The notes below the pieces were generated by a model. The model saw only the letters and a list, made by a program, of their open reading frames with translations. It had not been told where the DNA came from and did not search any database. A DNA stretch of 24,635 nucleotides from the IMG/VR virus record IMGVR_UViG_3300047560_002848, positions 1 through 24,635 of that record. One strand, written 5' to 3'. The first letter of the stretch is position 1, and the number at the start of each line of letters is the position of its first letter. Below, in pieces: positions 4,350 to 24,635 of the stretch. The DNA comes from a virus. Position numbers and translations under genes: made by a program.

Positions 4350-4759
4350 TGGCATATAACTTAAAGCAAATAAACGTACTTGATTTAAAGCCTTCTACAG
4401 GTATCGGAGTTGCTTTGCCATTTAGCACACCAGCGGTTTTTCAAACAGTCTATTCTACAAAAGAGCAGTTAAAGTATAATATTATAAATTTCCTGCTTAC
4501 AAATAAACGCGAAAGGTTATATAATCCTTCTTATGGAGCAAATCTAAGAGCAGAGTTATTTGAACAAATAACAGTTGATACAGCAGATGATATAGAGTTG
4601 CAAATAAGAGCTGGTATAGAGAACTACTTTCCAAACGTTGTAATTACCCAATTAACGTTCGATCCTAGACCAGATGAAAACTTATTAACAGTTCAGTTTT
4701 CTTATAATATTAAAAATACTGGAGAATCAGATAATATAATAATCGAGTTAAATGGCTAA
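4349..4759 (+). CDS. 25: Baseplate wedge protein, gp25-like (GPW/gp25 family)
   Basis: At 136 residues this matches the usual length of T4 gp25 and P2 gpW relatives, which form part of the inner baseplate wedge and trigger sheath polymerisation. Motifs visible: 'YSTKEQLKYNIINFLLTNKR' (about 34-53), followed by ERLYNPSYGANLRAELFEQI (about 54-73), which is the family's signature segment. A C-terminal beta strand, LLTVQFSYNI, follows. The family is known for a conserved 'EPR'-type motif; here the equivalent is ERL. It overlaps the next gene, gp6-like, by 8 nt. The adjacency of gp25 and gp6 homologues is a hallmark of contractile-tail clusters. Identification is firm. Confidence 0.92.
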   Translation: MAYNLKQINVLDLKPSTGIGVALPFSTPAVFQTVYSTKEQLKYNIINFLLTNKRERLYNPSYGANLRAELFEQITVDTADDIELQIRAGIENYFPNVVITQLTFDPRPDENLLTVQFSYNIKNTGESDNIIIELNG

Positions 4760-6611: not shown

Positions 6612-6615
6612 TAAA

Positions 6616-7962: not shown

Positions 7963-8309
7963 TGTCACAAGAGGTTAAATTAGTAAAAGAGGTTTATGGG
8001 CGTAATACTTACACAAGAGTTATAGATACTTCATTTAGTGAATTATACACTCCTGTAACTGCATCCACAGCACCAAACACACAATTAACTGTAGAACTCT
8101 TTTTTGACGCTTATAATGACCTGTTTTTCCAAATACCTGCTACTGGAGATATAAATTCTCACGAGTACCTAGTAAAAAGAAGTACAGAATATTTAGGCGG
8201 AGGAGTTTTATCTGATAACGAAAAGGCTTATATTGAAGAGATAAACTCTTTAAGACAGCAGTTATTAGAAGCAAATACAAACTATTTGAATTTAAATAAT
8301 ATAGTATAA
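7962..8309 (+). CDS. Small unknown protein in the wedge operon
   Basis: This 115-residue protein starts with a beta-rich part (KLVKEVYGRNTYTRVIDTSF), followed by TVELFFDAYNDLFFQIP (about 44-60). It ends with a helix likely to form a coiled coil (about 84-112, EKAYIEEINSLRQQLLEAN). It is linked by TAATG overlaps to both neighbours, so it is tightly co-translated with the DNRLRE-like protein and the 1610-residue protein. Position and size suggest a small wedge or adaptor subunit. I do not recognise the family. Confidence 0.65.
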   Translation: MSQEVKLVKEVYGRNTYTRVIDTSFSELYTPVTASTAPNTQLTVELFFDAYNDLFFQIPATGDINSHEYLVKRSTEYLGGGVLSDNEKAYIEEINSLRQQLLEANTNYLNLNNIV

Positions 8310-11300
8310 TGGAAGTAGTAGACGTAAAGTATATAGGATCTAATGACCAGTATCAAACATATTCTCCGCAGGATATGTCTTTGATTAATACTGTTACGGT
8401 TACAGGTACGTACGGTGCACCAAGCGACTATATTGAATATTTTATTAAGGACTTAAATGGTACTGTTTTAAGTAGTAACTACTATGCTAGTCAATATACT
8501 ATCGGTAGTAATTTAAATCCTACTAACGGTATTACAACTCAAATCTACTTAGACCCTGAAAAAGATGCAAGAACTGCAGGTTATAACAGAGGTTCAGTAA
8601 ATTTAAAGTATAACTTTTTCTCAAAACAACTTGCTTCTTCTCCAAATCCAACAGAGAATTTCTGGATTAAAGAGATTTCTACTTCAAGAACAGAGGTAAA
8701 AGCTGCAAGACAAGACTTATCTAATACACAATTATCATCTGCATTTACAGTATTTAATGCTGTACTTGCTGCCGATCCTTACTATCCTTCTTTCTATTTG
8801 AACTTTGGTTCAGATATTCAAGTTATTGCAATTAATGCAGTATACGTAGAAGAAGAAGGAAGCGGATATGTAATTTTTAAATTATACGAACCATTACCTA
8901 TTGAGTTTGACACTAAGTCAACTTTCTGGGTTGTTACTGAAGTAGCAGATCCTGCTGAATTTAATGTTGCAGTTAATGTTACTCCAGAAACTGTATTAGA
9001 TTCTACACCAGTACAAGGTCCAAACTTTAAAATACCGGTAAAAGATAAAATAAATCAGACTACACCTTATTACAATTATACTAACCTCTTATTAACCTCT
9101 GTAACATCTTCTTATCAACAGTTAAAGTCTTTGATGCAAGAAAAAGGCATTCAAATTAACGTTGATTATAGTGATTTTTCGAACTTTATACACTTCTCTT
9201 CTGCTACAGAGAGATTATATAACTTCGTCTACAAACTACAACTTATTGAGTCTGCTTCTGTCGGCTTAACTGAAACTAATACAGATACAGCTAAAGTACT
9301 TTTACAAAAACAAATAGATAATACCATTACTAACTTTGATGGTTATGAGTATTATTTATACTTCAACTCCTCCTCAACAGCATGGCCTAAGCAAACAGAA
9401 ACACAGCCTTACGAGTTGTATTCTGTAACTTCTTCTCAAGCTGTTAACTGGTTAGGTAGTACAGATATTACACCTAATGCAGCTACGATGAGTATGTATT
9501 TCTCTTCATCGTACTACGATGATCAGAATAAAGACTTATTAATACATTCTATACCAGGATATCTTTCAGAAGATCCTGCTAACACTCCATATCTTGTTTT
9601 CTTAAACATGATAGGACAGCATTTTGATAACATTTGGATTTACTTAAAGGACGTAACTAACCACTACTCTGCAGAAAATAATCCATTTGTAGGTATATCA
9701 ATGGATCAAGTATCTGATGCATTAAGAAGCTTTGGTATACAGTTATACACTAATACAAGTATTACAGATAATATCTACTATTCTTTATTAGGTATTAATC
9801 AAACTGGATCTGCTTTACCTGTTACCTCTAGTGCTTATTCTACACCAGTAGAAGCTAGCAGTAGTTTATATCCTTTATCAGGTAGTAGTTATTTGAGTGC
9901 TTCTTTATTATTACCTCCATTTGCAGAAGAGAAGATTAACAAGTATGTTATTACCTTTATAACAGGATCTAACGGTCAAGCTTTTGAAACTTTACCTTCT
10001 TCACAAATACAAGACGAAGTTTATAAGCGTATTTATCACAATTTACCTTATTTGTTAAAGACAAGAGGTACAGAAAGAGGTGTAAAAGCTTTAGTAACTA
10101 CATTTGGTATTCCTGATGATATTTTAAGTATACACGAGTACGGAGGTTATAATTACTATCAAGTACCGGGTATTCAAGAAATTAGTAATACAAGAATCTT
10201 AACAGGAAGTGTAGCAAGTATTTCAAGTAGTTTATTATCACCTTATACAACTACTCAATACTACGAATATACTTTAGAAAAGACCGCTAACGACGTAGAA
10301 GTAGCTTTCTCTCCTGCAGATTCTATCAACGCAAGTATTACTTCTTCAGGTTTTATTACCTCCTCTTTACAGCCAGGCTACTTCAATATTATGCAATATA
10401 TTGGAGCACCTAACTTACAATATTCAAGTTCATATACACCACTTGTTGCTTTAGCTGACAATTATTTTGCTGCTGAATATACAAGCAAGTACAATGTTTG
10501 GGACTTTATTAGAGTGATAAAGTACTACAATAACTCTCTATTCAAAATGTTGAGAGATTGGGTACCTGCAAGAAGCTCTGCCGATACAGGTATTGTTATT
10601 AAGTCTCACATGCTTGAGAGAAACAAGTATCCAAGACACGAACCTACATTTGTACAATTAACAGGTTCAGCAAACTACGACTTATTAGCAGTAACAGGAT
10701 CAAGTGGAGGTTCAGTAATAAAGAGCACTTCTTACATAGAAGCTATTCCGGTACAATACCAATCTAACTCAGTATATCTTTCAACTGCTCCAGGACTTGT
10801 ATATGTAACTTCCTCCAATAATATACAGAAATTCACAGGGGAATTTAGTGGGAGTACTATCGTAACAGATGTTAATACCTTTACGCAAGATTCAATATCT
10901 TCCTACGTATATCCCTGGACTTCTTCTGTAGCTCCATCAGAACATGGCGGTACAAATATTATATTTACAACGTATTCTGTAAGCCCTGTTATTAATAACG
11001 TTACAGGAGCTGTTATATCTCAAAGATTTTTAGACTTAGACTTTAACGGTAGTCAACTTGTAGCAACTAACTACGGATTGGTTACACAGTCTTTATCTCA
11101 GAGCTTGGTAATTGGACCAATATCTCAGAGTTTACAACCTTATTCTCAGTACGCACAGTTACAAGATTATAACTATAACTTACCTTCAACAGTAGCTATT
11201 AGATATAGTGGATCTTATTTATCAGGATTATACTATAATACACAGAGTATTGGAGATATTTCTTACGGAACTGACCCTGTAATTAACTATTATAGTGATA

Positions 11301-13141
11301 AATTAGGATTCTTTACTCAAGTTCAGACAAGTTCTTTCTTACCTGGAAGAGTAAATGCTACATTAGGCTACCTTGCTGACGTATCTGGCGGTTTATTTGA
11401 GCTAAATCAGAACAATAAACACTGGACTGACGTTCAAAACATCTTTGTAGCCGGTACTACTTTGACTGTTAAGCAGTTTGATAACAAAAAATACAGTAAT
11501 CAAGTTACTACAGACGGTATAAAAACCATTTATAACAGCGGATATTCTTATACTCCTCAATTATACTTCTTATCTGGATCTGATCAAAAGGTTTATTTCC
11601 AAGATAACGGAGGTACATCTGTAGGAACAGGCTTTACAGCGGTGAATAGCTTACTTGCTAATGCTTATATTAGTGGATCTTCAGGAGGCGGAGATGCATA
11701 CCCTGTTACTTTGATAACACCAGCAACAAGAGTAGGATCTATTTACAGAATATTTAATAGTCAGACAGGTGGCGGAACAGGATTTACCGCCGGTACTTTA
11801 ACTACTACACCGAGTTACATACCTACTGTCTCAGAAAACTTAGTATTTAACGCATCTTTCAATATTAATTTAGCATTTCAATCTGTTCCTCAAACTGGAG
11901 AATACACTTTCAGAATTATGAACGGATCTGATATATTAGCAAGTCAAGTACAGTCTTTTACTACTAGTACTAACCCTGCTACCAACGCTTCTGGTATAGC
12001 TACCACAAGTGGACCTGGAGTTTTAACTGGTCCAATATCAGGAACAAGCACTGTTACACTTACAGGACCTATTAACGTATATGTAAAAGCTACAACAGCA
12101 ACAGTTACTTACGTTCCGGCTTATGGACAATACGTACTTTCATATAGCACTGCAGGAACTGCCGTACCTTACGGTATTGCAACTGGAGAAACAGTAGTAT
12201 TTAAGCAGTATCAACCTACTTATTTAGGAAACCCAGTCGGAGGAACTGTATGGGCAGTATATTCTGATACTACTGCAGGACAATTATTCTTACAATGGGG
12301 TAATAGCGGCGGTAATAACGGATGGTTTCAAAGTTTTGATCCAGGAACTGCCGGTACAGATAATCTTACAGGAACTTTAAGCTTTAATTTAGCAACTATA
12401 CCTCAATCTTTCAATTCTAGCGATAATATTACTTTCCAATTGACTCAAAGTCAGATGACTACTGCTAATTTTACTGCTAGTTTGAGTGCTGGTAGCTTAG
12501 CGGCGGTAGTTCAAACGAGTGCACAAGGTAACTATCCTTATGCAACTGCAAGTATATCATTAAATCCAAACGGATGGTATATTGATAATATCGTTACATC
12601 TTCTTTATTAAGCGATGCAAGTGATTTAACCTTTACTACTAACTTATCACAGTTTTTCCAATATCAACAAGTACCTGGTTTTATATCTGCTTCTAATGGA
12701 ACTCAAGTAGCAATTACTAGTAGCTTGTATGCAGCTTATGGAGACATAAACTACACTTTAAATCCAGCATTTGGCGATAAATTAGTGATGAGCGATTTCG
12801 GAGGTAACATACAAGATTTAAACGTTGTAACTGCTTCTTACAGTTCAAGCACTAAGAAATTAAAAGTAACAGTAGCACCTCAAATTACAGGAGATTGGCA
12901 GACAAATCCTAAGTTAATCTACAGATTCTTGTTGTTAAAACGCTATGAGAATGAACAAAATGTGATTTTAACTTTCAATAAAGCACCTGGCCCAACTTCC
13001 TATGGATTTATCATACCAGATACTATTAATCCATCGGTGACTGCTAACATCAATGCTTTACAGGCTGCTGTACAATCACAATTATTATCAAACCAATCAA
13101 TACCTTCTATTGATACCATAAATGGAGGAACTTTTAACTAA
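8309..13141 (+). CDS. Very large baseplate protein with gpI / gp7-like segment
   Basis: This is a 1610-residue protein. Residues about 539-613 contain the segment QDEVYKRIYHNLPYLLKTRG followed by TERGVKALVTTFGIPDDILS and IHEYGG. This is the pattern of the P2 tail protein I family (R.yhnLP.l.k..GT...l...fG.....i.E), which is also embedded in T4 gp7, the wedge-initiating protein. A helix-rich region with IIGQHFDNIWIYLK-like residues lies just before it (about 429-448). Beta-rich Ser/Thr/Tyr/Gly segments fill residues 620-1600, including probable Ig-like stretches near 1180-1260. T4 gp7 is about 1030 residues, so this protein is considerably longer. It follows gp6, as gp7 does in T4. The wedge role is likely; the extra C-terminal half may reach out towards fibres. 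Confidence 0.65.
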   Translation: MEVVDVKYIGSNDQYQTYSPQDMSLINTVTVTGTYGAPSDYIEYFIKDLNGTVLSSNYYASQYTIGSNLNPTNGITTQIYLDPEKDARTAGYNRGSVNLKYNFFSKQLASSPNPTENFWIKEISTSRTEVKAARQDLSNTQLSSAFTVFNAVLAADPYYPSFYLNFGSDIQVIAINAVYVEEEGSGYVIFKLYEPLPIEFDTKSTFWVVTEVADPAEFNVAVNVTPETVLDSTPVQGPNFKIPVKDKINQTTPYYNYTNLLLTSVTSSYQQLKSLMQEKGIQINVDYSDFSNFIHFSSATERLYNFVYKLQLIESASVGLTETNTDTAKVLLQKQIDNTITNFDGYEYYLYFNSSSTAWPKQTETQPYELYSVTSSQAVNWLGSTDITPNAATMSMYFSSSYYDDQNKDLLIHSIPGYLSEDPANTPYLVFLNMIGQHFDNIWIYLKDVTNHYSAENNPFVGISMDQVSDALRSFGIQLYTNTSITDNIYYSLLGINQTGSALPVTSSAYSTPVEASSSLYPLSGSSYLSASLLLPPFAEEKINKYVITFITGSNGQAFETLPSSQIQDEVYKRIYHNLPYLLKTRGTERGVKALVTTFGIPDDILSIHEYGGYNYYQVPGIQEISNTRILTGSVASISSSLLSPYTTTQYYEYTLEKTANDVEVAFSPADSINASITSSGFITSSLQPGYFNIMQYIGAPNLQYSSSYTPLVALADNYFAAEYTSKYNVWDFIRVIKYYNNSLFKMLRDWVPARSSADTGIVIKSHMLERNKYPRHEPTFVQLTGSANYDLLAVTGSSGGSVIKSTSYIEAIPVQYQSNSVYLSTAPGLVYVTSSNNIQKFTGEFSGSTIVTDVNTFTQDSISSYVYPWTSSVAPSEHGGTNIIFTTYSVSPVINNVTGAVISQRFLDLDFNGSQLVATNYGLVTQSLSQSLVIGPISQSLQPYSQYAQLQDYNYNLPSTVAIRYSGSYLSGLYYNTQSIGDISYGTDPVINYYSDKLGFFTQVQTSSFLPGRVNATLGYLADVSGGLFELNQNNKHWTDVQNIFVAGTTLTVKQFDNKKYSNQVTTDGIKTIYNSGYSYTPQLYFLSGSDQKVYFQDNGGTSVGTGFTAVNSLLANAYISGSSGGGDAYPVTLITPATRVGSIYRIFNSQTGGGTGFTAGTLTTTPSYIPTVSENLVFNASFNINLAFQSVPQTGEYTFRIMNGSDILASQVQSFTTSTNPATNASGIATTSGPGVLTGPISGTSTVTLTGPINVYVKATTATVTYVPAYGQYVLSYSTAGTAVPYGIATGETVVFKQYQPTYLGNPVGGTVWAVYSDTTAGQLFLQWGNSGGNNGWFQSFDPGTAGTDNLTGTLSFNLATIPQSFNSSDNITFQLTQSQMTTANFTASLSAGSLAAVVQTSAQGNYPYATASISLNPNGWYIDNIVTSSLLSDASDLTFTTNLSQFFQYQQVPGFISASNGTQVAITSSLYAAYGDINYTLNPAFGDKLVMSDFGGNIQDLNVVTASYSSSTKKLKVTVAPQITGDWQTNPKLIYRFLLLKRYENEQNVILTFNKAPGPTSYGFIIPDTINPSVTANINALQAAVQSQLLSNQSIPSIDTINGGTFN

Positions 13142-13146
13142 TTCAA

Positions 13147-13159
13147 ATATTTATAAAGA
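13147..13159 (+). promoter_or_regulatory. Candidate late-type promoter before gene 13175
   Basis: In the 33-nt gap between 13141 and 13175, the box TATAAAGA (13152-13159) matches the T4 late-promoter consensus TATAAATA at 7 of 8 positions. It sits 15 nt before the ATG. It overlaps the 10-mer ATATTTATAA that is also found at 3899. AT-rich DNA produces such boxes by chance, so this is only a candidate, but the gap is one of the few large ones and could start a new transcript for the fibre genes. Confidence 0.3.
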
Positions 13160-13174
13160 GAAAAACAGTAAAAT

Positions 13175-13840
13175 ATGGGATATTTAAATAATACGTCAGT
13201 TGTTGTAGACGCTATTTTAACCGACAAAGGAAGACAGTTGCTTGCACAAAACGACGGATCTTTCCAAATTACACAATTTTCATTGTCTGATGACGAGGTA
13301 GACTACACTTTGTACAACCCAAATCATCCTTCAGGCTCAGCTTTTTATGGCGAAGCTATTGAAAACATGCCAATTATTCAGGCTTTCCCTGAATCTAACG
13401 AAATTATGAAGTATAAGTTGATCACTTTACCAAGAGGAACAGCTAAACTTCCAGTAGTTACTGTTGGTTACTCAACAATCGTATTGAAGCAAGGTTCTTC
13501 ACTTTCTCTTACACCTCAAACATTGAATTATTTGGGTGCAACTTCAACTTTCGAGCAATCTGGCTACGTTGCAACAATAGGAGACGTTAGAACAATGTCT
13601 GCATTCAACGGTGTCGGTATTAATACTCCAAATGCAACTGCATTAAACGCTACAGGCACAATTACAGTAGGTACAAACGTATCAAAAACTGTTATTGGTA
13701 CTTCAATTAACTTAACAGCAACTACTGTAAATACATTGTTCGGTACTAATACGACTTTATACACAACATTAACTATTGTGGGTCGTGATTCAGGTGCGAG
13801 ATTATTCATCCCAGTTCAAATTACTCAAGTAACACAATAA
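13175..13840 (+). CDS. Virion structural protein of unknown function (MGYLNNT family)
   Basis: This 221-residue protein has an N-terminal domain (about 1-115) with the sequence VVVDAILTDKGRQLLAQNDG, then FQITQFSLSDDEVDYTLYNP, then FYGEAIENMPIIQAFPESN. A proline-containing stretch (LITLPRGTAKLPV) leads into a Thr-rich beta C-terminus (about 145-221) resembling an Ig-like fold. I recall similar N-termini in environmental contractile phages, without a known function; this is memory, not a search. Leu is coded by TTG unusually often (8 of about 19), whereas neighbours prefer TTA, which may reflect high expression. The neighbouring gene starts 4 nt after its stop. A role in the outer baseplate or neck is possible. 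Confidence 0.7.
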   Translation: MGYLNNTSVVVDAILTDKGRQLLAQNDGSFQITQFSLSDDEVDYTLYNPNHPSGSAFYGEAIENMPIIQAFPESNEIMKYKLITLPRGTAKLPVVTVGYSTIVLKQGSSLSLTPQTLNYLGATSTFEQSGYVATIGDVRTMSAFNGVGINTPNATALNATGTITVGTNVSKTVIGTSINLTATTVNTLFGTNTTLYTTLTIVGRDSGARLFIPVQITQVTQ

Positions 13841-13844
13841 GAAT

Positions 13845-14930
13845 ATGTCATTCACACAATTAAATCCATCAGATTTCGTAGTTAGTTCCGATTCAGTAAC
13901 AGCTCCAGCTTGGAGTTCTAACGTACCGGTACTTTCTTCTTTCTATACAGCTTCATTAGCAGCTACTACTACAATAAGTGCAGGTGCTTATTACTTAAAT
14001 GTGTATCAAGCAGCAGTAGGAACAACATCAGCAGCAGTTCAATTTGCAATCGCTTATGGTAATGCACAGGGATCAGGTTCTAGATGGCTTAACGCTTTAG
14101 TACCAGGTGTATCTCCTTCATTAACTACCTACAATCAATATGCAACTTTAGTATATGGACCGGAAATTTCTGGTTCTCAAGGTTTTAACTTCGGTGGAAC
14201 TGCTACAAATGCACCAGATATCTTTGCTCTTAACGTAGATAGAAATAGATACAAGGAGAGCTTAATGCCAGGTACATTTAATATCAGCATTTCTGGTTCT
14301 GGAGGTAAGATTACATTATGTGATAACAGTAACGATGTATCTACAGTAACTTATTTAGACTGTGGTAGAGTATTTAACCTTGTTTCTGGTTCTTACGGTA
14401 AAGCAGTTGGTATTACACCAGTAGGTGGTATCGCTCCAGGCTATACAGTTTCTGGTTCTTACGGTTTATTCTTACCAGATATCGGTACAATTATCTTAAA
14501 TCCAAGTGCTCTTGCTTTAGGACCTACTTACGGAGGTATTAACTTAACAGTAGATCGTCAAAACTACGGTAGTGGTTCTTATACCTTGAACGCTTCTGCT
14601 TCTTATACGTCCAATAACAACACTATTTTGTATCAAGCAATTTCTAGAAGTGCAAACTTCCAGTTAAATTCTCAAGAAACTATTTCTTCAGATTATGTGT
14701 TTGTAAGAGTAGGTAATTCTGATTACAATTACTCAACAAATCCAACATTTACTTCTGGTTCTACAGGTGCTGTATTATATCAAACAATGATCTACAGTCC
14801 TCAAACATACGTAACAACAGTTGGTTTATATAATAGTAACAGTGAATTATTAGCAGTAGCTAAATTATCACAAGCCTTAGTTAAAGACTTTACAAAAGAA
14901 GCATTAATTAGAGTTAAGTTAGATTGGTAA
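13845..14930 (+). CDS. Virion structural protein of unknown function, beta-rich
   Basis: This is a 361-residue protein. The N-terminal part (about 1-135) is Ser/Ala/Thr-rich beta structure with an aromatic-rich segment. The central motif LNVDRNRYKESLMPGTFNIS (about 129-148) is followed by VSTVTYLDCGRVFNLVSGSY and GYTVSGSYGLFLPDIG. The C-terminal segment has SSDYVFVRVGNSDYNYSTNP, then TYVTTVGLYNSNSELLAVAK and FTKEALIRVKLDW. The end of the protein, an 'AKLSQ.L.KDFTKEAL.RVKLD' pattern, is reminiscent of conserved structural proteins in environmental myoviruses; I recall this without a search. It sits between the 221-residue protein and the first fibre protein, so it is probably a fibre-attachment or baseplate-peripheral protein. 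No enzyme motif is visible. Confidence 0.7.
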   Translation: MSFTQLNPSDFVVSSDSVTAPAWSSNVPVLSSFYTASLAATTTISAGAYYLNVYQAAVGTTSAAVQFAIAYGNAQGSGSRWLNALVPGVSPSLTTYNQYATLVYGPEISGSQGFNFGGTATNAPDIFALNVDRNRYKESLMPGTFNISISGSGGKITLCDNSNDVSTVTYLDCGRVFNLVSGSYGKAVGITPVGGIAPGYTVSGSYGLFLPDIGTIILNPSALALGPTYGGINLTVDRQNYGSGSYTLNASASYTSNNNTILYQAISRSANFQLNSQETISSDYVFVRVGNSDYNYSTNPTFTSGSTGAVLYQTMIYSPQTYVTTVGLYNSNSELLAVAKLSQALVKDFTKEALIRVKLDW

Positions 14931-14942
14931 TAAAATAAAACA

Positions 14943-16496
14943 ATGAGTAGAGCATCAAATAGTCTTAAAGTTACTGATGTTACGGCTACTCCCATTAAAC
15001 TTAAATACTCCGCTTCTTATAGTAATACTACTATATGCGATTCGGGCATTTATGCACAAAGTGGGTTGAATGGCCCCGTTACAGTCACTGGATCAATACC
15101 GCAAAGAACATTGCGTTACTGGTCCATTAGGCATTTGTTCTATTCTAACTTCTTAACTGGTAGTTATTTAACTACTACTTCTAGCTTCGATAACTTCTTA
15201 CAATCGACAGCTGCATCTGGAACTTTAGAGAATGACAACGTACTATCTTCTTCGGCGGATGTTCGTTATTTTCCTACAGAATCTAATGCAAAAATCAAAA
15301 TTATTAATATTCCTAAAAGCAGTTTTGGAGAGAAGACTTCTAGAAAAAGCTTCTTTTTAGAATCTGCTGACGGAACTAGCTATCAATTAGTTGATGACGG
15401 AAACGGTAACATTATCGACGTCTTTAACGATGATGTCCATGTAGGGAATATCATTTATGCACAGGGATTTGTGATTATTACCAATCCAGATTACTATTGT
15501 GCAATGGATGGCGGTCCTTTTACTTTTCCCAAGTCTTATGTATTCGACGTAACAGAGTCGGTTAAGTCATTTAACCCAATAACAGACGCACAGCCAGATT
15601 GTGCTCCTGTAGATGCAACGACTGTTGCTCTTTTACCTTACCCTGGATATCAATTTCCAAGTTCTAGTATCGCTACAAACGGTACTGTCACACTTAGTGA
15701 ATCAGATTCATTAACAAATATTGTTGGTACTTATAAAGATTATTATACAGTTGAATCTACTTACTGCGCATCATCAGATAAGCAGCCAATAACGGTTCAA
15801 ATTGTAGATTGTTCAGTTAGAAACTTAACAGCAACAGCTTTAAGTTGTAGTATTAATGGAATTGTTCTAACTTATATTCCACCACCTACTGCAACACCAA
15901 CACCAACATCTACACCTACACCTTCTGCTACACCATCACCAACTCCAACACCTTCTGCTACACCAACAGCAACTCCAACGCCTACTCCATTACCTCCGAC
16001 AGCTACTCCAACTCCAACACCGTCTGCTACTCCAACTGCAGGTCCAACATTAACACCAACTCCTACTGTGAGTCCTACACCAACTCCAGTACCTGTTGCA
16101 TTCTCTTTAGCAAATGATTGTGATACTAACACCGTTAGAGTATACAACATGTTAAACGGTAGCGGTCAATACGAAGGCACTACTGTCTACTTCAGTGAAG
16201 CTGAAGCATTGGGCGGATTGTTCTTTGACGTACCTCCTACGGATGTAACTTCTGGATACTATACAAGTAGAAGCGGTTATGCAGCTGGCGTGACAATGTA
16301 TGTAGCAGTTAGAGACAAGCTTAATCCAAGTAATGTAACTGTTAACTCGATTGTATTAGCTGCTTGTCCTACACCAACACCTACTCCAACAGTACCTCCA
16401 GGCGATTTATACACAGCAACAATAATATTAAACTTTGTTCCAACATCGCAGATTGTAAGTAGCGGTTGTGAAGCTTATACAAACTGTACTTGGTAA
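14943..16496 (+). CDS. Probable fibre/adhesion protein with Thr/Pro-rich linker
   Basis: This 517-residue protein has four parts. Residues about 1-310 are a structural domain with [19 protein letters not shown], then [20 protein letters not shown] and [31 protein letters not shown], which look like an attachment domain. Residues about 313-384 are a mucin-like Thr/Pro/Ser/Ala linker. Residues about 385-475 are a beta module ending in Cys ([14 protein letters not shown] ... IVLAAC). A short TPTPTP linker and only about 30 further residues (ending [12 protein letters not shown]) follow. The leader (TAAAATAAAACA) is A-rich without a Shine-Dalgarno sequence. The N-terminal part probably binds the baseplate, with the outer modules as adhesins. 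The short C-terminal end looks unfinished compared with the modules of the 1359-residue protein. Confidence 0.65.
15879..16094 (+). repeat. Thr/Pro-rich linker tract, first fibre gene
   Basis: A 216-nt tract of CCN-ACN-type hexamers encodes about 72 residues of Pro-Thr pairs with scattered Ser, Ala, Leu and Val. Synonymous codons are mixed (CCA, CCT, CCG; ACA, ACT, ACG), so selection on the protein, not only DNA slippage, keeps it. A short second linker of the same type lies at 16368-16403. The antisense strand shows an open VGVG-type frame here as a by-product. Confidence 0.85.
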
Positions 16497-16510
16497 TAAA
16501 CTAAAAGATT

Positions 16511-17032
16511 ATGGCATATCCATGTGACAAATATACATACTACTACCAAAACACTCTAACTCCTGGAACAGGGCTGTTAAACCAATCCTTCTATGTAGGC
16601 TCAAATGGCGGTGCAGTTCAAGACGGATACTATAGTGATGGGTCTTACGTATACACTGTCGTAGGTGGCATAGTAACAAGCGTAGTGACAGTAGGAGATT
16701 GCGGCAGTATTCCAACACCAGAACCAATACAGTACTACGAATATAACTTTGCTTTTGCAGCTAATGCAGTACTTGCCTGTACTAAAGGTACAGATCCTGG
16801 ACAATTAACTACATTATATAGTAATGCTAATACTTCAGACTTGTACGGACCAAGCGGAATTGTAAACTATTCACCTCAATCTGACGTATATACTTTTGGA
16901 TACTATCTGTATACCGATACTGGATTATCTAGCGCTGTAAGTAACGGATATTATTCAGATGGAGTATATTATTTCAGAGTAAACGGAAGTGGTGCAACAG
17001 CAGGATTAATAACAGCAGCAGGATATTGTTAA
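16511..17032 (+). CDS. Small fibre protein made of two Cys-bounded YYSDG modules
   Basis: This 173-residue protein has two related beta modules. The first spans about residues 5-67: it starts PCDKYTYYYQN, carries DGYYSDG (16622-16642) and ends VVTVGDC. After a short PTPEPIQ link, the second spans about 75-173: it starts with an ACTKG-type Cys, carries NGYYSDG (16943-16963) and ends LITAAGYC. Each begins near a Cys and closes with a Cys, suggesting a disulfide that staples module ends. The same signature recurs in the 1359-residue protein. The A-rich leader lacks a Shine-Dalgarno sequence. It is probably a fibre tip or accessory adhesin in the same transcript as its neighbours. No family name can be assigned. 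Confidence 0.7.
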   Translation: MAYPCDKYTYYYQNTLTPGTGLLNQSFYVGSNGGAVQDGYYSDGSYVYTVVGGIVTSVVTVGDCGSIPTPEPIQYYEYNFAFAANAVLACTKGTDPGQLTTLYSNANTSDLYGPSGIVNYSPQSDVYTFGYYLYTDTGLSSAVSNGYYSDGVYYFRVNGSGATAGLITAAGYC

Positions 17033-17058
17033 CGATAAAACTATTTATATAAAATAAA

Positions 17059-17316
17059 ATGACGTTTCCTTATAAAATACAATGTACATCGGTTGGAGTA
17101 AGCACAGACTTATTTACCATCATGTATAGTATTGTAGGAAGCTCTACATTATACGTAGCAGGCGCACCTTGCGGTGGAGGAGAAGCAACGCTTATTACCG
17201 GAGCTCAATTAATAAGTGGGTTTACAGCTTTATTTCCTGCAAACGTAGGAACCGTTTACGTATATAATATCGGAGGAGATTGTGTAGATAAATTTACAGC
17301 TGTAACAATAGCTTAA
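17059..17316 (+). CDS. Small protein resembling the N-terminal domain of the 1359-residue fibre
   Basis: This 85-residue protein aligns by eye with residues about 5-80 of the following fibre gene: YKIQCTSVGVSTDLFTIMYS against [20 protein letters not shown], and LISGFTALFPANVGTVYVYN against [20 protein letters not shown]. Both end shortly after a Cys-containing segment (GGDCVDKF and SGFCNCF). It is predicted all-beta. This looks like a paralogue of the fibre's N-terminal domain kept as a separate gene. It could cap a fibre, compete for the same baseplate socket, or be a remnant of an older fibre. The leader is A-rich (TTTATATAAAATAAA). Confidence 0.7.
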   Translation: MTFPYKIQCTSVGVSTDLFTIMYSIVGSSTLYVAGAPCGGGEATLITGAQLISGFTALFPANVGTVYVYNIGGDCVDKFTAVTIA

Positions 17317-17324
17317 AATTAAAT

Positions 17325-17332
17325 TATAAATA
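17325..17332 (+). promoter_or_regulatory. Candidate T4-type late promoter before the 1359-residue fibre gene
   Basis: An exact TATAAATA box, the T4 late-promoter consensus, lies in the 45-nt gap before the gene at 17362 and ends 29 nt before the ATG. That spacing allows a transcription start and a short A-rich leader. The same 8-mer also occurs inside the gp6-like gene (6452-6459), so chance matches exist in this AT-rich sequence. Position in a gap raises its weight, but it remains a candidate. Confidence 0.4.
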
Positions 17333-17361
17333 AAGGATATATAACAAGAGATTAGATAAAA

Positions 17362-20300
17362 ATGGCAGATAATAGATATTTAGTAACCGTTACAAGCTTC
17401 GGCGCAGACACAAGCGATACATTTAGTATCTCTTACAACCTTATCGGAGATCCGACTCAGATAACGGTGGCTGTTAACGTTACTAAAGCAGAACTACTTG
17501 CCGGTTATTATATTACTATCCCTAGTAATGCAAACAATGTTTATATTGCTAACGAAAGCGGATTCTGTAACTGTTTCTCTGATTCAGCTTTAGTACCAGG
17601 TGCTCCAACTCCAACTCCTACGCCGACTGCTACTCCTTCTCCTACACCAACTCCTTCTGCTACACCAACCGCTACACCAACTCCTTCAGGTACTCCAACA
17701 CCATCACCTACTCCTTCTGCTACCCCAACTGCAACGCCGACTCCTAGTCCTACACCAACTCCGGTACCTGTTCCAATATATTATAGACTTAATTTAGCTG
17801 CTAACGTACCGGCTACTATGTCTATTAAAGTACAAAGTCCTTCAGGATCAGCTACATCTAGTAGCTACTTCTATTCAAGCTCTATAAGTGGATCTTTTAA
17901 CGCTCTCCCTGGGGATTATGTAATCTTTAGCGGATATAATAGCGGAAGTGCATGGCCATTAACCGGTACTTCTACAATGACTTTATCTGTTACTGGATCT
18001 TCAAATTCTGGTAGCAATGTTTCTGTATTCTCTAGCAGTAGTTTAGTAACTAAAGGAACTTATTTAACAGGATCATTTACAGGATCTTTATCAGGAAGCG
18101 TATTAACTACTTACGCTTTACCGTCTACAGCTACACCAACTCCAACTTCAACCCCTACTTCAACACCAACACCGTTACCAGCTACAGCTACACCAACACC
18201 AACCGCTACTTCGACTCCTACTCCAACACCTTTACCGGTAGAAGTTAAATACTCTTTATCTTTAGATGCTGCAGTTCCTGCGAGTATGTCTATTGTAATA
18301 CAAAGTCCTTCAGGATCAGCTACATCTTCAAGCTTATTAATTTCTAGCTCTCAAGCCGGATCTTTAACTGCTCGTGTTGGAGACTATGTAACATTTAATG
18401 CTTATGCATCTCAAAGTACATGGCCTGTATACGGACATCCTTCAATGAGCTTAACAGTTACTGGTTCTTATACAGCTAGTTTATTGACAGATGACAAAGA
18501 TATAGTGTTATCTCAAGGAACTTACTTAACTGGATCTTATGCAGCTACTGCATTAACAGGTAGCGTTTCTACAGATTTACCGATTTATACGTTACAGTTA
18601 GGATATAGTACAGCAGGCTTCTATCAAGCTTGTAGTCAATATGCTATAGGATCTAAAGTAACTGTTTACTCTTATACATCTTTCCCTGACTTGACTAACG
18701 GTACTGCAATTTACAGTACTTACGCTGTACCATTAACAGATGCAGCACCTAACGGATGGTATTCAGATGGAACTGATGCTTGGATAGCAACAGGTGGATC
18801 AATGTACGGACAAACTTCTTGTAGTGCTCCAACTCCTACTCCAACTCCAACTCCAACACCTCCAGGTATTGGTTACTTAAGATATACAGGAACAACTTAC
18901 GCTAGTAAGAATGCAGCTTGTATAGATCCTAACTACGCACCAGGTACTCAAATGTACCTAAACGATGATGTATTACCTCAAGTAGGCGATATATTCTACA
19001 CAGATATTCAATGTACTACGCCATTTAACGGCGGTGGTTTAATTTATAAAGTTTCTAGAAGCAGTTCAACATTCCAACAATGGGGTATTGAAATTGGTGC
19101 TCTAGGTACTATCTTATCTATAACGGATTGTTCTACAGTTCCAACACCAACACCTACACCGACTCCTTCAGCAACACCTACACCTACACCAGTACCGGTA
19201 CAAGTTAAGTATTCATTTACAATGGACGACCTTGTTCCTGCTACTATGTCTATCGTATTGCAAAGTCCTTCCGGATCAGCTACATCTAGTAGTATAATCT
19301 TAACAGGTTCTCAAACTGGCTCTTTATCTGCTCAAGAGGGTGACTTTGTAACATTTAATACTTATGCATCTCAAAGTACATGGCCAGTTTACGGATATCC
19401 TTCAATGAGCTTGAGTACTATTTCTGGCTCTTATGTAATCACTGATATTACTGCTGATAAAAATGTACGCTTGACTCAAGGAACCTACTTGACTGGTTCA
19501 TTCTTAAAGACATTAACAGGAAGTGCAACATCAGATCTTCCAATCTATACTTTACAGTTAGGCTATAGTACTGCTAACTTTACAAATGCATGTAGTAACT
19601 TTGCTATAGGCACTAAAGTAACTGTCTACTCTTATACTCCAACTAGCTTATTAACAAACGGAGATGTACTATACGATACTTATAACGTACCTTTATCAAG
19701 TACAGCACCTAATGGATGGTATTCTGACGGTACTAATGCATGGATTGCAACAGCTGGTTCATTGTATAACCAATTAGCATGTACCTCTCCAACTCAAACT
19801 CCTACACCTACTCCTACACCTGTCGGCGTTGCATTCTTAAGATATACAGGAGCGACTTATGCTAGTACAACAGCAGCTTGCGTAGATCCAAACTATGCAC
19901 CAGGTGCTACAATGTACTTAAATGCTGATACTGTACCAAATGTAGGCGACTTCTTCTATACAGATATTAACTGTACTGCATCGTTTAACGGCGGTAGTTT
20001 AACTTATAAAGTATCTAAAGATGCTTCAAGATGGGGCATTACAATCGGTGCTACCGGTCAAATTACAGCAGTTACAGATTGTTCAACAATTCCAACTGCT
20101 ACTCCAACACCTACTCCATTACCTGCAACCGCTACACCAACACCTACTGCTACTCCATTACCTGCTACAGCAACTCCAACTGCTACACCATTACCAGCTA
20201 CACCAACACCTAGTCCAACTCCTGCACCTCCAACGTTTGCTTTCTTAACAAACACTGGTAGAAGTGGATATACAGCAGCTTGTTCAGCAGCTAAGACTCT

Positions 20301-21441
20301 TACGGTTTATGCATTTAGTAACATCTGGGGTAGTGGAAATACCTACTACGACAGTAATACAACAGGCTTTGCACCTTACGCTGGTGCTAACCAATGGTTC
20401 GTTTACAGTGGCGTTGCTATTCAAATAGACGACAATGGTGTATCTTCTAACGATACTAACTGTCCTACTGCAACACCTACTCCTCTTCCTCCAACTGCAA
20501 CACCAACACCATTACCTCCGACAGCTACACCAACACCTTCTGCTACACCAACGCCAACACCTACACCATTACCAGCTACAGCAACTCCTACTGCTTCACC
20601 TTTACCAGCTACTTCAACTCCAACACCTACTCCTTCTCCAACTCCTTTAGGACCGGGCTTCGGATTCTCAGTAGGTAACGGATCTAATACTCCAACTCAA
20701 GCTTGTAATGCTGCTAAGACTCAAACAATCTATGCATTTGCTAGTACATTCGGCGGTGGTCAAACATACTATACTAGCAACACTTATCCATTCAGTACGT
20801 TTGCTGGAGCTAATAAGTGGTATTCTAGCGGTGGAGTATCTGTTCAGATAGACGATAGTGGTGTATCTTCTAACGATACTAACTGTCCTACAGCAACTCC
20901 TACACCATTACCGGCAACAGCTACACCTACACCATTACCGGCAACTGCTACACCAACGCCTACTGCTACTCCGTTACCGGCTACTTCAACACCAACTCCA
21001 ACACCGTTACCGGCTACTTCAACACCAACTCCAACACCGTTACCGGCAACCGCTACACCGACTCCAATACCTGCTACTTCGACTCCAACTCCGGTACCTA
21101 CAGTAACAGCTACTATCTATGCTAAGCGTAATAGTATTGCAGGCGATACAACATACTTATACTACAGTACAGACGGTACAACTTGGAATACTACATTCCA
21201 GAACGTAGCTAGAGGTACAACATGTCAATTATATGCTACAGTAACTGTACCTCAAAACGGAACATTGTACTTGAAACAAACAAACGAAATTCAAGGAGTA
21301 GACGTACCAGCGGTAGCTTCAGAAAGTGCTTGTCCAAGCAGTCTTTCAGGAGAGATTTGTCAAAATACAATTAGCATGACAGCTAGCAAGACAATATACG
21401 TATACGTTGATGCTGCAAACTATAGCCCGCCAGTATGTTAA
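17362..21441 (+). CDS. Giant modular fibre/adhesin with eight Thr/Pro-rich linkers
   Basis: This 1359-residue protein has this order: N-terminal domain (17362-17604), linker, module A1 (17776-18120), linker, A2 (18241-18588), B1 (18589-18822), linker, C1 (18865-19137), linker, A3, B2, linker, C2 (19825-20088), linker, D1 (20236-20463), linker, D2 (20650-20886), linker, C-terminal domain E (21103-21438). A modules share VPA.MSI and [11 protein letters not shown] modules share NGWYSDG and end in Cys. C modules share LRYTG.TYAS, AAC.DPNYAPG and TDCS. D modules share GVSSNDTNC. All look beta-rich. Bead-on-string domains on stiff Thr/Pro stalks, located after baseplate genes and before glycosyltransferases, suggest a receptor-binding fibre. 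No signal peptide, anchor or chaperone domain is visible. A carbohydrate-binding role for the modules is an inference. Confidence 0.7.
17605..17775 (+). repeat. Thr/Pro-rich linker 1
   Basis: A 57-residue Pro-Thr linker joins the N-terminal domain to module A1. Ser, Ala and Gly interrupt the Pro-Thr pairs at intervals. Mixed synonymous codons argue for selection at the protein level. Confidence 0.85.
18121..18240 (+). repeat. Thr/Pro-rich linker 2
   Basis: A 40-residue linker separates modules A1 and A2. It contains the LPATATPTP unit that recurs in linkers 6-8, so this unit has spread within the gene. Confidence 0.85.
18241..19200 (+). repeat. Segmental tandem duplication, copy 1 (A2-B1-C1 with linkers)
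   Basis: This 960-nt unit (320 residues) is followed directly by a diverged copy. Landmarks recur exactly 960 nt later: CAAAGTCCTT at 18301 and 19261, TTACAGTTAGG near 18592 and 19552, AACGGATGGT-type at 18751 and 19711, GATATACAGG at 18881 and 19841. The short linker inside the unit (18829-18864) has the same length in both copies. Confidence 0.85.
19201..20088 (+). repeat. Segmental tandem duplication, copy 2 (A3-B2-C2)
   Basis: This is the diverged second copy of the 960-nt unit. It stays in register until module C2, where a three-residue deletion ([10 protein letters not shown] in copy 1 against KDASRWG in copy 2) shifts the spacing by 9 nt. The linker that follows is longer and different, so the duplicated block ends at about 20088. 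Confidence 0.85.
20092..20235 (+). repeat. Thr/Pro-rich linker 6
   Basis: A 48-residue linker joins C2 to D1, with repeated LPATATPTP-type units and a final PAPPT. Confidence 0.85.
20236..20463 (+). repeat. Module D1 of the giant fibre
   Basis: A 76-residue beta module with [16 protein letters not shown] near its start and ending [13 protein letters not shown]. It is a duplicate of D2, 423 nt further on. A 32-nt stretch (20437-20468) is identical to 20860-20891. Confidence 0.8.
20464..20649 (+). repeat. Thr/Pro-rich linker 7
   Basis: A 62-residue linker between D1 and D2. It is made of LPPTATPTP and LPATATPT-type units with Ser substitutions and ends SPTPLG. Confidence 0.85.
20650..20886 (+). 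repeat. Module D2 of the giant fibre
   Basis: A 79-residue module with [16 protein letters not shown] and ending [13 protein letters not shown]. It is the second copy of D1. The Cys near the start and the terminal Cys are both conserved, which fits a disulfide between module ends. Confidence 0.8.
20887..21102 (+). repeat. Thr/Pro-rich linker 8
   Basis: The longest linker (about 72 residues), built almost wholly of LPAT(A/S)TPTP units. It contains the perfect 33-nt tandem repeat at 20971-21036 and leads into the C-terminal domain E. Confidence 0.85.
20971..21036 (+). repeat. Perfect 33-nt tandem repeat
   Basis: Two identical 33-nt units (20971-21003 and 21004-21036) each encode [12 protein letters not shown] third copy begins (CCGTTACCGGC, 21037 on) and then diverges. 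Perfect identity, while other linkers use mixed codons, suggests a recent slippage or recombination event. Confidence 0.9.
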
Positions 21442-21457
21442 TCTAAACTAAACTACT

Positions 21458-21649
21458 ATGACACTCTATACAGTAAAAATGCAAATGACACCGGGAGATG
21501 ATTCAATCTATACTACTGGACTTACACCAGGAGGAGATTCATGGACCTATGAAACTTATGCAGAAGCGGAAGCTAAGATGTTAGAATTAAAAGCTACTGA
21601 TACAACTGATAGAGTTTACGATATACATACATACGAACAAAGTGTTTAA
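21458..21649 (+). CDS. Small unknown protein after the fibre gene
   Basis: This 63-residue acidic protein starts MTLYTVKMQMTPGDDSIYTT. A short helix, TYAEAEAKMLELKATD, is followed by the strand DRVYDIHTYEQ. The layout resembles a small alpha/beta domain. It begins 16 nt after the giant fibre and is followed by the largest gap of the window, so it is probably the last gene of the fibre transcript. It might be a fibre chaperone or cap, but nothing in the sequence shows that. I do not recognise the family. Confidence 0.6.
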   Translation: MTLYTVKMQMTPGDDSIYTTGLTPGGDSWTYETYAEAEAKMLELKATDTTDRVYDIHTYEQSV

Positions 21650-21686
21650 AAAATAAAGTTGGAAAACTGAATTAAATTAGTTATAT

Positions 21687-21694
21687 TATAAAAA
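21687..21694 (+). promoter_or_regulatory. Candidate promoter before the glycosyltransferase genes
   Basis: The 54-nt gap 21650-21703 holds TATAAAAA, which matches the T4 late-promoter box at 7 of 8 positions and ends 9 nt before the ATG at 21704. The spacing is short for a leader. A further A-rich stretch (AAAAAAGAAA) may aid translation initiation. No convincing terminator hairpin is present in the gap. Confidence 0.25.
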
Positions 21695-21703
21695 AGAAAT
21701 GTT

Positions 21704-22984
21704 ATGAGGAAGATTAAAGTAAAAGATACTGATAAGATCTTTGTACAAATAGCTAGTTATAGAGACCCGCAATTAATCCCTACGATTAACGATGCTCTGG
21801 AAAGAGCTTTACATCCGGAAAGACTTGTATTCGGTATTTGTTGGCAATACGACGAAACGGAAGATCCAAATCACTACGACGGAAATCCTCAATTTAGAGT
21901 AAGTAAGCATCATTACAGTGAAAGCCAAGGTTTAGGCTGGGCTAGAAATATAACTAATCAACTCTTAGAAGACGAAAAATATACTTTACAGTTAGATTCT
22001 CACCACAGATTTTTAATGGGATGGGATAGGATGATGGTAGAAGACTACGAACAAGCTTCTACTATGTCTAAGAAACCTATCTTAAGTACATATGTTACTC
22101 CTTTCGAAGTAGATAAGATAGAACAATGCCGTTGTCATTTAAATAAGACTCCGTGCTTAATGTCTCAATATGAATTTAGTCCAGATAAGTTACTTATGAG
22201 TATGCCTTGGTATATTCAAGATTATAAAGAAAGAGATACAGTTATTAAAGCTCGTACCCTTAGCGGACACTTTTATTTTACAAAGAGTGAATTTATTAAA
22301 GAAGTACCTTACGATCCAGATATCTACTTTGGAGGTTATTGTGAAGAGACTACTATGAGTGTTAGAGCTTGGACATCAGGTTATGATTTCTTCAGTCCTT
22401 ACCGTCAGTATATTTGGCATGAATACACAAGACAGGGTAGACCAAAGCATTGGGAAGATCACGGTACTAAAAGTGAAACCGAAAAGACTAGTGGTCAAAG
22501 AGATGTTTATGCTCGTCAAAAGACTCGTCAAATATTCGGACAAGAAGATAATGGTATTGATTTAGGTATTTACGGTTTAGGAAATGTTAGAACTTTACAT
22601 GATTACGAAGTGTTTGGTGGATTTGATTTTAAAAATTGTAGAATACAAGACTATACTTTACAGGTAAAAGAACCTGCCAATCCTACTCCATGGGAGGAAC
22701 AATTTAAGAGTATAAACTTTAATTTAATTTGTGATTGGGATAAAGAATTCTTTAAAGAGCAGCAATTTGAAAAACCTAAATTTTTAACTTTAGGACTATT
22801 AACTAAAACTGGCGAAGAGGTTTATAGAAGAGACTTTACTATGGAAGAAGAGCCTGATTATGTTAATTTAAAAATTACTCAATTTAATGCTGTAGGTAGA
22901 GCAGTAGAAGCACCTACTACATTAGTTATGTATCTTTACGACGAAGAAAAACAATGGAGTAATAGGTACGAAAAAGCAATTTAA
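21704..22984 (+). CDS. GlcNAc-transferase-type glycosyltransferase (PF11397-like)
   Basis: This 426-residue protein has a GT-A-type catalytic domain at about 10-270 with the family pattern: KIFVQIASYRDPQLIPTIND, then RLVFGICWQYDE, then GLGWARNITNQLL and YTLQLDSHHRFLMGWDRMM. The D98-S-H100 triad is the expected metal/nucleotide-sugar motif (DxH). Later come GHFYFTKSEFIKEVPYDPDI, YFGGYCEETTMSVRAWTSGY and YIWHEYTRQGRPKHWEDH, which are typical of this family. The family includes eukaryotic enzymes that add GlcNAc to hydroxyproline of Skp1. Residues about 290-426 form a second, beta-rich domain of unknown role. It overlaps the next gene by 1 nt (TAATG). Targets could be virion fibres or host glycans; the donor sugar cannot be read from sequence. 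Confidence 0.85.
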   Translation: MRKIKVKDTDKIFVQIASYRDPQLIPTINDALERALHPERLVFGICWQYDETEDPNHYDGNPQFRVSKHHYSESQGLGWARNITNQLLEDEKYTLQLDSHHRFLMGWDRMMVEDYEQASTMSKKPILSTYVTPFEVDKIEQCRCHLNKTPCLMSQYEFSPDKLLMSMPWYIQDYKERDTVIKARTLSGHFYFTKSEFIKEVPYDPDIYFGGYCEETTMSVRAWTSGYDFFSPYRQYIWHEYTRQGRPKHWEDHGTKSETEKTSGQRDVYARQKTRQIFGQEDNGIDLGIYGLGNVRTLHDYEVFGGFDFKNCRIQDYTLQVKEPANPTPWEEQFKSINFNLICDWDKEFFKEQQFEKPKFLTLGLLTKTGEEVYRRDFTMEEEPDYVNLKITQFNAVGRAVEAPTTLVMYLYDEEKQWSNRYEKAI

Positions 22985-24635
22985 TGAAGATAGTCTTTTT
23001 ACTAATTGGGGCAGAAGGAAGACCTAAAGTTTTAAACGGAGATACTATTAGATATGGTCAAGCTCCTGCTTCAGGTACAGACCAGTCTGTTATTATGGTA
23101 GCAGAATACCTAGCAAAAGGCGGTCACGACGTTACAATCGTCTTAGGTAAAACAGATAAACAACCTTGTAGAGGAGTTAAATACGACGATTTTAATTACG
23201 AAAGCTTAAAAGATCAAGAAGTAGATATTATAGTTTCTGCTCTTTGGTTTTCTAAGTATGAAGAACTTCCTTTTAAAGTAACTAAAGGCTTAATATACTG
23301 GTATCACATGGCATGGGTGTACGGCATTGATGAAATAACTCGATACTGTACTGCAAATAATTTAAAGCTAGGTTTTGTTAATATCTCTAAATGGGCACGT
23401 GAACAAAACGAATGGAGTGTAAAGTTAGGGCAACAACGAATTGAAAATACATTCGATGTTATTATACCTAATCCGATAATGACCGATCTTATCGATGAAA
23501 TTTTACAAGAAAAACAAATAGAAAGAAGAGATAAGAGTACAGTCTTTCATGCACAATACAGTAGAGGTGGTCAAGTTGCCAGTAGAGCAGTACAAGAATT
23601 AGGTTGGGATCCAATATACAGATTCGATTATACAGATGCTGCAAACGGTACAGATAAAAAGATATTATTTGAAAAGCTTTTAGAATCTGATTATTTTATA
23701 TTTCCTCTTTATCATCCAAACGGTTGTGTATACAAAGATACTTTCTCTTGTGCCGTAGCAGAAGCTATTGCAGCAGGAGTTATTGTAATTACTTATCCTT
23801 TAGGTGCTATACCGGAATATTTTTCAGACGGATGTTCTTTCTTAGTTTTCCCTTACGGTACTAATATGGAGAAAATGATGACCGAAAGAGTATCTTGTGA
23901 TGCACAGTATATGGATTTCCATTATAATATTTTAGATACTGTAAGAAATCTAGAAGAGAATCCAGAACTTAAACAGCAAATAAGAGATAAATCAAAGACT
24001 TTAATAAAGGAAAATTTCTCTATTGAAAAGGTAGGTAAAGAATGGGATAAGTTATTAGAAGAATTTGGACCTATTGAACCTCCTGCAGACAGTCCTTTTA
24101 ATTTCTTCGATAAAATATTTTATATTAACTTAGATAGCCGTCCTGACCGAAAAGAGTTCATGGAGCAGCAATTTAGAAAGTACGGTATTAAGGCTGAAAG
24201 GTATTCAGCAGTAAATGTTACTAAAGAACAAAACGAAGACTTTGTTAAAAGAGGCTGTGTATTTTACGACGATACAAGACCTGATTATGCACCAAGAATA
24301 AAATCTTGTACCTTATCTCACCTCTTTATTATGTTCCAGGCAAAGTTAATGAATTATAAAAACTACTTAGTGCTTGAAGACGATGCTCTTTTCGATGAAA
24401 ATATTGTAGAGGAGTTAAGAAATTGTGTTAATGAATTAGAAGGTAAAGATTGGGATATGTTTTATTTAGGGTGTAATCCTTTAGAATATTACAAAGAGAC
24501 AGAGTATTTAGGAAGATTATTACGTACAACTACCACACATGCTTTTGCTGTTAATCAAAAATTCTACGATACTATTTTAAATGCTGATTTCTTTCACCGT
24601 TATCCTTGTATTGATGGCTTTATAGGTAATTTAGG
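22984..24635 (+). CDS. Glycosyltransferase fusion: GT4-like (GT-B) plus GT25-like, 3' partial
   Basis: The frame starts at the TAATG junction (ATG 22984) and stays open to the window end, giving at least 550 residues. Residues about 1-350 look like a GT-B glycosyltransferase: MKIVFLLIGAEGRPK opens a Rossmann-like fold, SVIMVAEYLAKGGHDVTIVL follows, and the donor-site stretch SCAVAEAIAAGVIVITYPLG plus AIPEYFSDG lies at about 258-286. From about residue 374, KIFYINLDSRPDRKEFMEQQ begins a GT25 (LPS glycosyltransferase) domain. It continues with SCTLSHLFIMFQ and the acidic motif YLVLEDDALF (E465-D-D). Fusing two glycosyltransferases suggests consecutive sugar additions. It is cut by the window edge, so its C-terminus and any third domain are unknown. 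Confidence 0.85.
   Translation, partial: MKIVFLLIGAEGRPKVLNGDTIRYGQAPASGTDQSVIMVAEYLAKGGHDVTIVLGKTDKQPCRGVKYDDFNYESLKDQEVDIIVSALWFSKYEELPFKVTKGLIYWYHMAWVYGIDEITRYCTANNLKLGFVNISKWAREQNEWSVKLGQQRIENTFDVIIPNPIMTDLIDEILQEKQIERRDKSTVFHAQYSRGGQVASRAVQELGWDPIYRFDYTDAANGTDKKILFEKLLESDYFIFPLYHPNGCVYKDTFSCAVAEAIAAGVIVITYPLGAIPEYFSDGCSFLVFPYGTNMEKMMTERVSCDAQYMDFHYNILDTVRNLEENPELKQQIRDKSKTLIKENFSIEKVGKEWDKLLEEFGPIEPPADSPFNFFDKIFYINLDSRPDRKEFMEQQFRKYGIKAERYSAVNVTKEQNEDFVKRGCVFYDDTRPDYAPRIKSCTLSHLFIMFQAKLMNYKNYLVLEDDALFDENIVEELRNCVNELEGKDWDMFYLGCNPLEYYKETEYLGRLLRTTTTHAFAVNQKFYDTILNADFFHRYPCIDGFIGNL

Follow-up and report, generated by a model that had tools for sequence, protein, structure and literature searches.

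Why would a phage place tail-fibre genes laden with threonine/proline (Thr/Pro, TP)-rich linkers directly before glycosyltransferase genes of its own? The question is raised by IMG/VR virus record IMGVR_UViG_3300047560_002848, a fragmentary contig of 24,635 bases that was analysed at its full length and is called the window here. Its + strand holds two TP fibre genes, a PF11397 (GT60-type) glycosyltransferase (GT) gene and a gene for a GT4-GT25 fusion. A preliminary description of this DNA had proposed, from position and family, that the fibres are glycosylated by the phage itself. Co-occurrence, family membership and predicted fold now support that proposal, and we consider it likely that the phage encodes a cytosolic, mucin-type O-glycosylation pathway acting on its tail-fibre stalks. 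What the analysis shows is that linkers and enzymes exist, that they are present or absent as a pair, and that the enzyme carries the family signature and resembles known folds; from this we infer which residues accept the sugar, what the first sugar is, in what order it is extended and how the phage benefits.

Thr/Pro linkers in the fibre genes

Ten linkers were counted, agreeing with the earlier estimate of about ten. A 517-residue structural protein (14943..16496, + strand) contained two, at 15876..16109 (78 residues) and 16353..16409 (19 residues). The other eight separated the folded modules of a 1359-residue modular fibre/adhesin (17362..21441, + strand), at 17584..17778 (65 residues), 18121..18246 (42), 18814..18873 (20), 19129..19206 (26), 19783..19836 (18), 20083..20241 (53), 20461..20664 (68) and 20884..21105 (74), all on the + strand. 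Together they spanned 463 residues, with 33% Thr (151), 35% Pro (160), 11% Ala and 7% Ser (32), and the two proteins held 125 TP/SP dipeptides. Only 8/56 adjacent TP units had the same DNA sequence, and 63% of third-position sites differed, so that it is the amino-acid repeat that is maintained and not a product of recent DNA slippage. Such linkers had a background of ~0.4% of genes (9/2275) in unrelated viral contigs. Modelling of one fibre module lying between linkers (189 residues, three sequences) gave an unusable structure, with a predicted local distance difference test score (pLDDT) of 36.

The general O-glycosylation system of Bacteroidota also attaches O-linked glycans to Ser/Thr, but it is a periplasmic host system with its own D-S/T sequon. 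As noted previously, this sequon is essentially absent from the window's linkers: the two linker proteins contained four D-(S/T)-(A/I/L/V/M/T) sites, none inside TP repeats and one touching the edge of linker 3.

A GT60-type enzyme with a DxH motif

Only a 63-residue open reading frame (ORF; 21458..21649, + strand; weak match to phrog_18127, E 0.02) separated the last fibre gene from the putative O-glycan initiator at 21704..22984 (+ strand), which matched PF11397 in Pfam with E 1e-61 (209.9 bits against a curated cut-off of 21). The enzyme carried DxH in place of DxD (DSH, residues 98-100), in which D98 and H100 were invariant across 13 aligned phage sequences and were retained by at least 93% of a set of 57, and it ended in a beta-rich C-terminal region. 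Its structural model (pLDDT 84) retrieved polypeptide N-acetylgalactosamine (GalNAc)-transferases as 49 of its best 50 PDB fold matches, with E from 3.2e-10. The window thus encodes Thr/Ser-Pro-rich acceptor-type domains together with a predicted initiating enzyme, the combination that characterises a mucin-type system.

GT60 has been grouped with GT27, the two sharing the DxH replacement and O-glycosylation of Ser/Thr in polypeptides (PMC7185993), and GT60 enzymes start Thr-linked mucin glycans in Trypanosoma cruzi and Dictyostelium (PMC3769586, PMC8724618). The animal GalNAc-transferases of GT27 resemble the phage enzyme in best PDB fold, in DxH and in their Thr/Pro-rich acceptors, but matches to GalNAc-T2, T4, T7 and T12 had a TM-score of ~0.5 at 11-17% identity, and searching the PDB with the enzyme's sequence gave no significant match. 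The protist alpha-N-acetylglucosamine (GlcNAc)-transferases of GT60 (T. cruzi TcOGNT-2, Dictyostelium Gnt2) share its Pfam family, DxH and a Thr-rich acceptor with Pro nearby, whereas they are Golgi membrane proteins and the phage enzyme is apparently soluble and cytosolic, with a different C-terminal part and a fibre as its proposed acceptor. Another member of the PF11397 family, the Skp1 enzyme, acts on hydroxyproline (PMC8724618). By its fold search and these published descriptions, the window's enzyme appears closer to the Thr-acting, mucin-type branch of GT60 than to the Skp1 branch.

We postulate that during infection this enzyme, with its retaining GT-A fold and DxH metal site, would add the first sugar to Thr and some Ser of the linkers; by family analogy the sugar on Thr is probably alpha-GlcNAc. 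Cassette enzymes may then extend it, in the window the GT4-GT25 fusion (22984..24633, + strand, open at the contig end), in relatives also GT11, FkbM-type methyltransferases and galactofuranose supplied through UDP-galactopyranose mutase. The outcome would be brush-like virion stalks that are extended, rigid, shielded, protease-resistant and variable.

Linkers and enzyme are gained and lost together

The preliminary description had linked fibres and enzymes by position and family, and had proposed a survey of related phages for co-occurrence of TP fibres and PF11397-like genes. That survey carried the link further, to a coupling in presence and absence. We collected 80 loci by a conserved neighbouring gene (13175-13840), which avoided selection by glycosyltransferase or linker, and 56 of them, the window included, were informative. 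Twelve had both PF11397 and TP linkers, 44 had neither, and none had PF11397 alone or linkers alone. Without the window the counts were 11/0/0/44 (P = 8e-12), though relatedness inflates such values, and we therefore inferred a phylogeny from the neighbouring structural genes. On this tree both traits changed jointly six times, five of them on supported branches, and never separately. Two PF11397-free relatives (L577, 11334-13766; L618) had poly-Thr, Pro-poor linkers at the fibre site; Thr runs alone thus do not go with PF11397.

Across whole records, TP-coding DNA (ACNCCN x4) was found in 36/49 PF11397 records, compared with 1/50 long records selected for other low-complexity sequence and 1/50 gp6-selected records, the latter being the weaker control as many gp6 records are short. 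The single TP-positive gp6 record also carried PF11397 adjoining its TP fibre. TP fibres adjoined PF11397 in two further gp6 records with the gene, and ten gp6 relatives in which the same site was complete had neither. Approached from the linker side with a local hidden Markov model, PF11397 was found near 8/120 TP stretches, against 0/119 Ala-Pro (AP) stretches, 0/113 others and 0/80 gp6 stretches; the 'GS' pattern control (8/113 in frame, mostly in another reading frame) serves only as arbitrary contigs. Among the families listed for genes near random TP genes, the only glycosyltransferase other than PF11397 was a single GT9, and no glycosyltransferase family was among those listed for neighbours of AP genes.

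Two more distant PF11397 lineages had TP linkers in 73/80 and 43/60 stretches, a biased sample in that both were found through TP contigs. The gene immediately upstream of PF11397 encoded a TP protein in 49/78 and 5/58 of their loci, compared with ~0.4% of genes in controls; in the second lineage TP genes lay mostly downstream, at +1/+2.

A parallel in type VI secretion

Among bacterial relatives of PF11397, a Burkholderiaceae group lay in type VI secretion system (T6SS) clusters with TssA, a secreted protein of ~345 residues, PF11397 and a VgrG gene in divergent orientation, gene names being assigned by reading of the sequences. VgrG carried a long Ser/Thr-Pro repeat tail in 11/11 clusters with PF11397 and in 0/28 same-genus genomes lacking it (best VgrG of each). 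The tail repeats varied (TP, TEPPP, PPPSEE, EPSDEQP, PQTEEP, AASDEEP and ETPD). At loci L516, L519, L520, L521, L526, L531, L536, L537, L546 and L561, PF11397 followed TssA and the secreted protein, which was fimbrial-like.

It could be that PF11397/GT60 enzymes are a broad class, found in both prokaryotes and phages, that starts mucin-type O-glycosylation of Ser/Thr-Pro repeats where contractile machines touch the host (tail fibres, T6SS VgrG spikes), with galactofuranose-containing chains in part of the phages; we regard the chances of this broader reading as about even.

The glycan cassette and an improbable host-surface role

The preliminary description had placed two glycosyltransferases downstream of the fibres on the same strand. 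Both are present in the window, but they belong to a larger glycan cassette that PF11397 opens. In 22984-24633, GT25 was identified by PF01755 (E 1.5e-14, residues 376-526), and GT4-type models scored below their cut-offs. Fifty-five PF11397 relatives in IMG/VR shared a common gene order with PF11397 first, followed by a GT4-type protein, GT25 or an FkbM methyltransferase, GT11, further methyltransferases and UDP-galactopyranose mutase. A TP-linker protein was encoded immediately upstream of PF11397 in 17/52 loci of the window's lineage; other upstream neighbours were a baseplate spike gene accompanied by the UDP-galactopyranose mutase (L029 group), a fibre with an S74 peptidase (L057) and a helicase (L014 group). 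In other TP-positive lineages the later enzymes were swapped (GT10, GT7/GT2, GT34, HtrL_YibB, methyltransferases) and PF11397 was retained, sometimes in tandem. Tandem PF11397 pairs followed a TP fibre in L572, L573, L593, L630, L634, L647, L648, L654 and L656, and in L573 the later enzymes were of a different set.

In core 2 of T. cruzi, galactofuranose is attached to the GlcNAc (PMC3769586). The UDP-galactopyranose mutase of the window's phage relatives, which produces UDP-galactofuranose, offers a suggestive parallel, and a parallel only.

Such a cassette could instead alter the host surface (lipopolysaccharide (LPS), capsule or exopolysaccharide) against superinfection, the TP linkers being plain spacers and the tail locus simply a place where host-interaction genes gather. 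GT25, GT4, GT11 and UDP-galactopyranose mutase are all common in LPS and capsule loci, and phages are known to alter the surface sugars of their hosts. However, a host-surface role leaves the 12/0/0/44 pairing and the VgrG tails unexplained, and the nearest folds to the first enzyme are polypeptide transferases. No strongly hydrophobic 19-residue stretch was present in 225/251 cassette proteins (the 26 with one were mostly the GT4-type protein), and neither a membrane flippase nor a polyprenyl-phosphate transferase, the partners of a glycosyltransferase in gtr-type serotype conversion, was recognised among the subset of cassette proteins scanned with Pfam. We consider this role improbable.

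Less likely alternatives: co-transfer, hydroxyproline and DNA modification

It is similarly improbable that fibre and glycosyltransferase are functionally unrelated and are swapped between phages as one DNA module. The genes are adjacent, so that recombination would carry both, and their presence on the tree is patchy. However, TP linkers occurred in several separate genes of PF11397-positive phages, and of 30 PF11397 records lacking TP near the glycosyltransferase 17 had it at another position in the same record, a pattern not expected if adjacent genes had simply moved together. Nor does co-transfer account for the retention of PF11397 where TP-positive relatives had replaced the extension enzymes, or for the T6SS pair, in which the glycosyltransferase and VgrG lie on opposite strands ~6 kb apart.

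A route like that of Skp1, in which linker prolines would be hydroxylated and the PF11397 enzyme would place GlcNAc on hydroxyproline, is suggested by the hydroxyproline-modifying members of the family, which the preliminary description had mentioned. The Skp1 Gnt1 pathway belongs to the same Pfam family, is cytosolic and continues with extension by enzymes that frequently occur as fusions (PMC8724618), but the phage cassette has no linked prolyl 4-hydroxylase. The 2-oxoglutarate-Fe(II) (2OG-Fe(II)) oxygenase family PF13640 was found in 3/136 neighbours of TP genes, and the families listed for AP neighbours did not include it. At one locus (L160) such an oxygenase stood two genes from PF11397. 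Overall, PF13640 was rare (6/50 records: 5/49 cassette records plus L160), unlinked to the cassettes and present in none of this clade's cassettes, so a dedicated prolyl 4-hydroxylase was not found for this clade and the route was rejected here. No prolyl-hydroxylase-type gene was identified in the window by a Pfam scan covering part of the upstream genes. The Thr of the TP motif would also be unneeded. We consider this branch disfavoured and quite unlikely, with L160 a possible exception. This phage locus (838-5801) runs from a TP fibre gene through genes for a 2OG-Fe(II) oxygenase, a radical S-adenosylmethionine (SAM) protein and PF11397 to an epimerase gene, and it is the only place where a hydroxyproline route appears possible.

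Glycosylation of phage DNA by the cassette is highly improbable: phage glycosyltransferases often act on DNA and there was one weak TAGT match (L574, E 0.009), but the motif and fold of PF11397 put it among the polypeptide transferases, and DNA modification gives no reason for co-variation with fibre linkers. Each of these four alternatives explains less of the coupling between linkers and PF11397 than does mucin-type glycosylation of the fibres.

Several observations nevertheless weigh against fibre glycosylation as we propose it. The phylogenetic sign test is weak alone, with 5-6 independent events (0.0625 for five). By the strict pattern 13/49 PF11397 records had no TP, although several were fragments and L008 had TP in a looser form. 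PF11397 was not near 112/120 TP stretches in viral contigs; TP linkers thus do not always need a PF11397 enzyme. In L012, L019-L021 and L026 the cassette stood alone and not beside fibre genes, and the PF11397 relatives of two cultured jumbo phages, Xanthomonas phage XacN1 and Stenotrophomonas phage RAS14, were away from fibres, the XacN1 copy lying by a carbamoyltransferase. Finally, the PF11397-positive T6SS loci form one related group.

Gene layout of the window and its relatives

Baseplate genes came first in the window, including gp25-like (4349-4759) and gp6-like (4752-6611) genes, followed by fibre and structural genes, the short ORF and the two glycosyltransferase genes. No RNA families or tRNAs were found in the window. 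Its gp6 was 45% identical to that of Flavobacterium phage immuto and 42% to that of Microcystis phage Mel-JY01, and the baseplate/structural gene order of 4752-14930 was common to both. At the TP-fibre site these two phages had genes without TP linkers, those of immuto at the site syntenic to 17362-21441 being annotated as tail fiber / tail spike, and PF11397 was found in neither. Orthologues of the 517-residue protein in PF11397-free relatives were mostly ~200-350 residues long, some larger, and had no TP linkers.

The phages of the PF11397/TP group were uncultured and aquatic. Distant PF11397 genes (32-34%) were present in XacN1 and RAS14 (L058, L059); in XacN1 the carbamoyltransferase follows the PF11397 gene, a GT9 gene is nearby and the fibre genes are distant.

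Implications for phage and contractile-machine biology

Mucin-type initiation by GT60 and glycosylated mycobacteriophage virions are already known. We found no paper on PF11397/GT60 in phages or T6SS in a literature search of open-access papers, nor a source for a phage GT60 system paired with fibre linkers. In mycobacteriophages, the C-termini of capsid and tail-tube subunits are glycosylated (Freeman et al. 2023, as cited in PMC12619734). The proposed fibre system would likewise concern a phage-made virion with glycosylated structural proteins. No part for PF11397, TP linkers or tail fibres is known in the mycobacteriophage case, whereas the window holds baseplate and fibre genes.

If our reading is correct, a dedicated phage mucin-type pathway on tail fibres would join the few known cases of virion glycosylation. 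Thr/Pro linkers together with PF11397 would provide a sequence rule by which glycosylation could be predicted for the fibres of many uncultured phages and for the T6SS spikes of Burkholderiaceae, and roles of fibre glycans in stalk rigidity, protease resistance, reach and escape from host recognition would become testable. The finding would also bear on the origin of GT60/GT27 mucin initiation, and it would provide soluble bacterial and phage enzymes for possible cytosolic glycosylation of Thr-Pro repeats. Should the broader reading hold as well, the mucin pathway of protists would be a single branch of a system spread widely among microbes and viruses.

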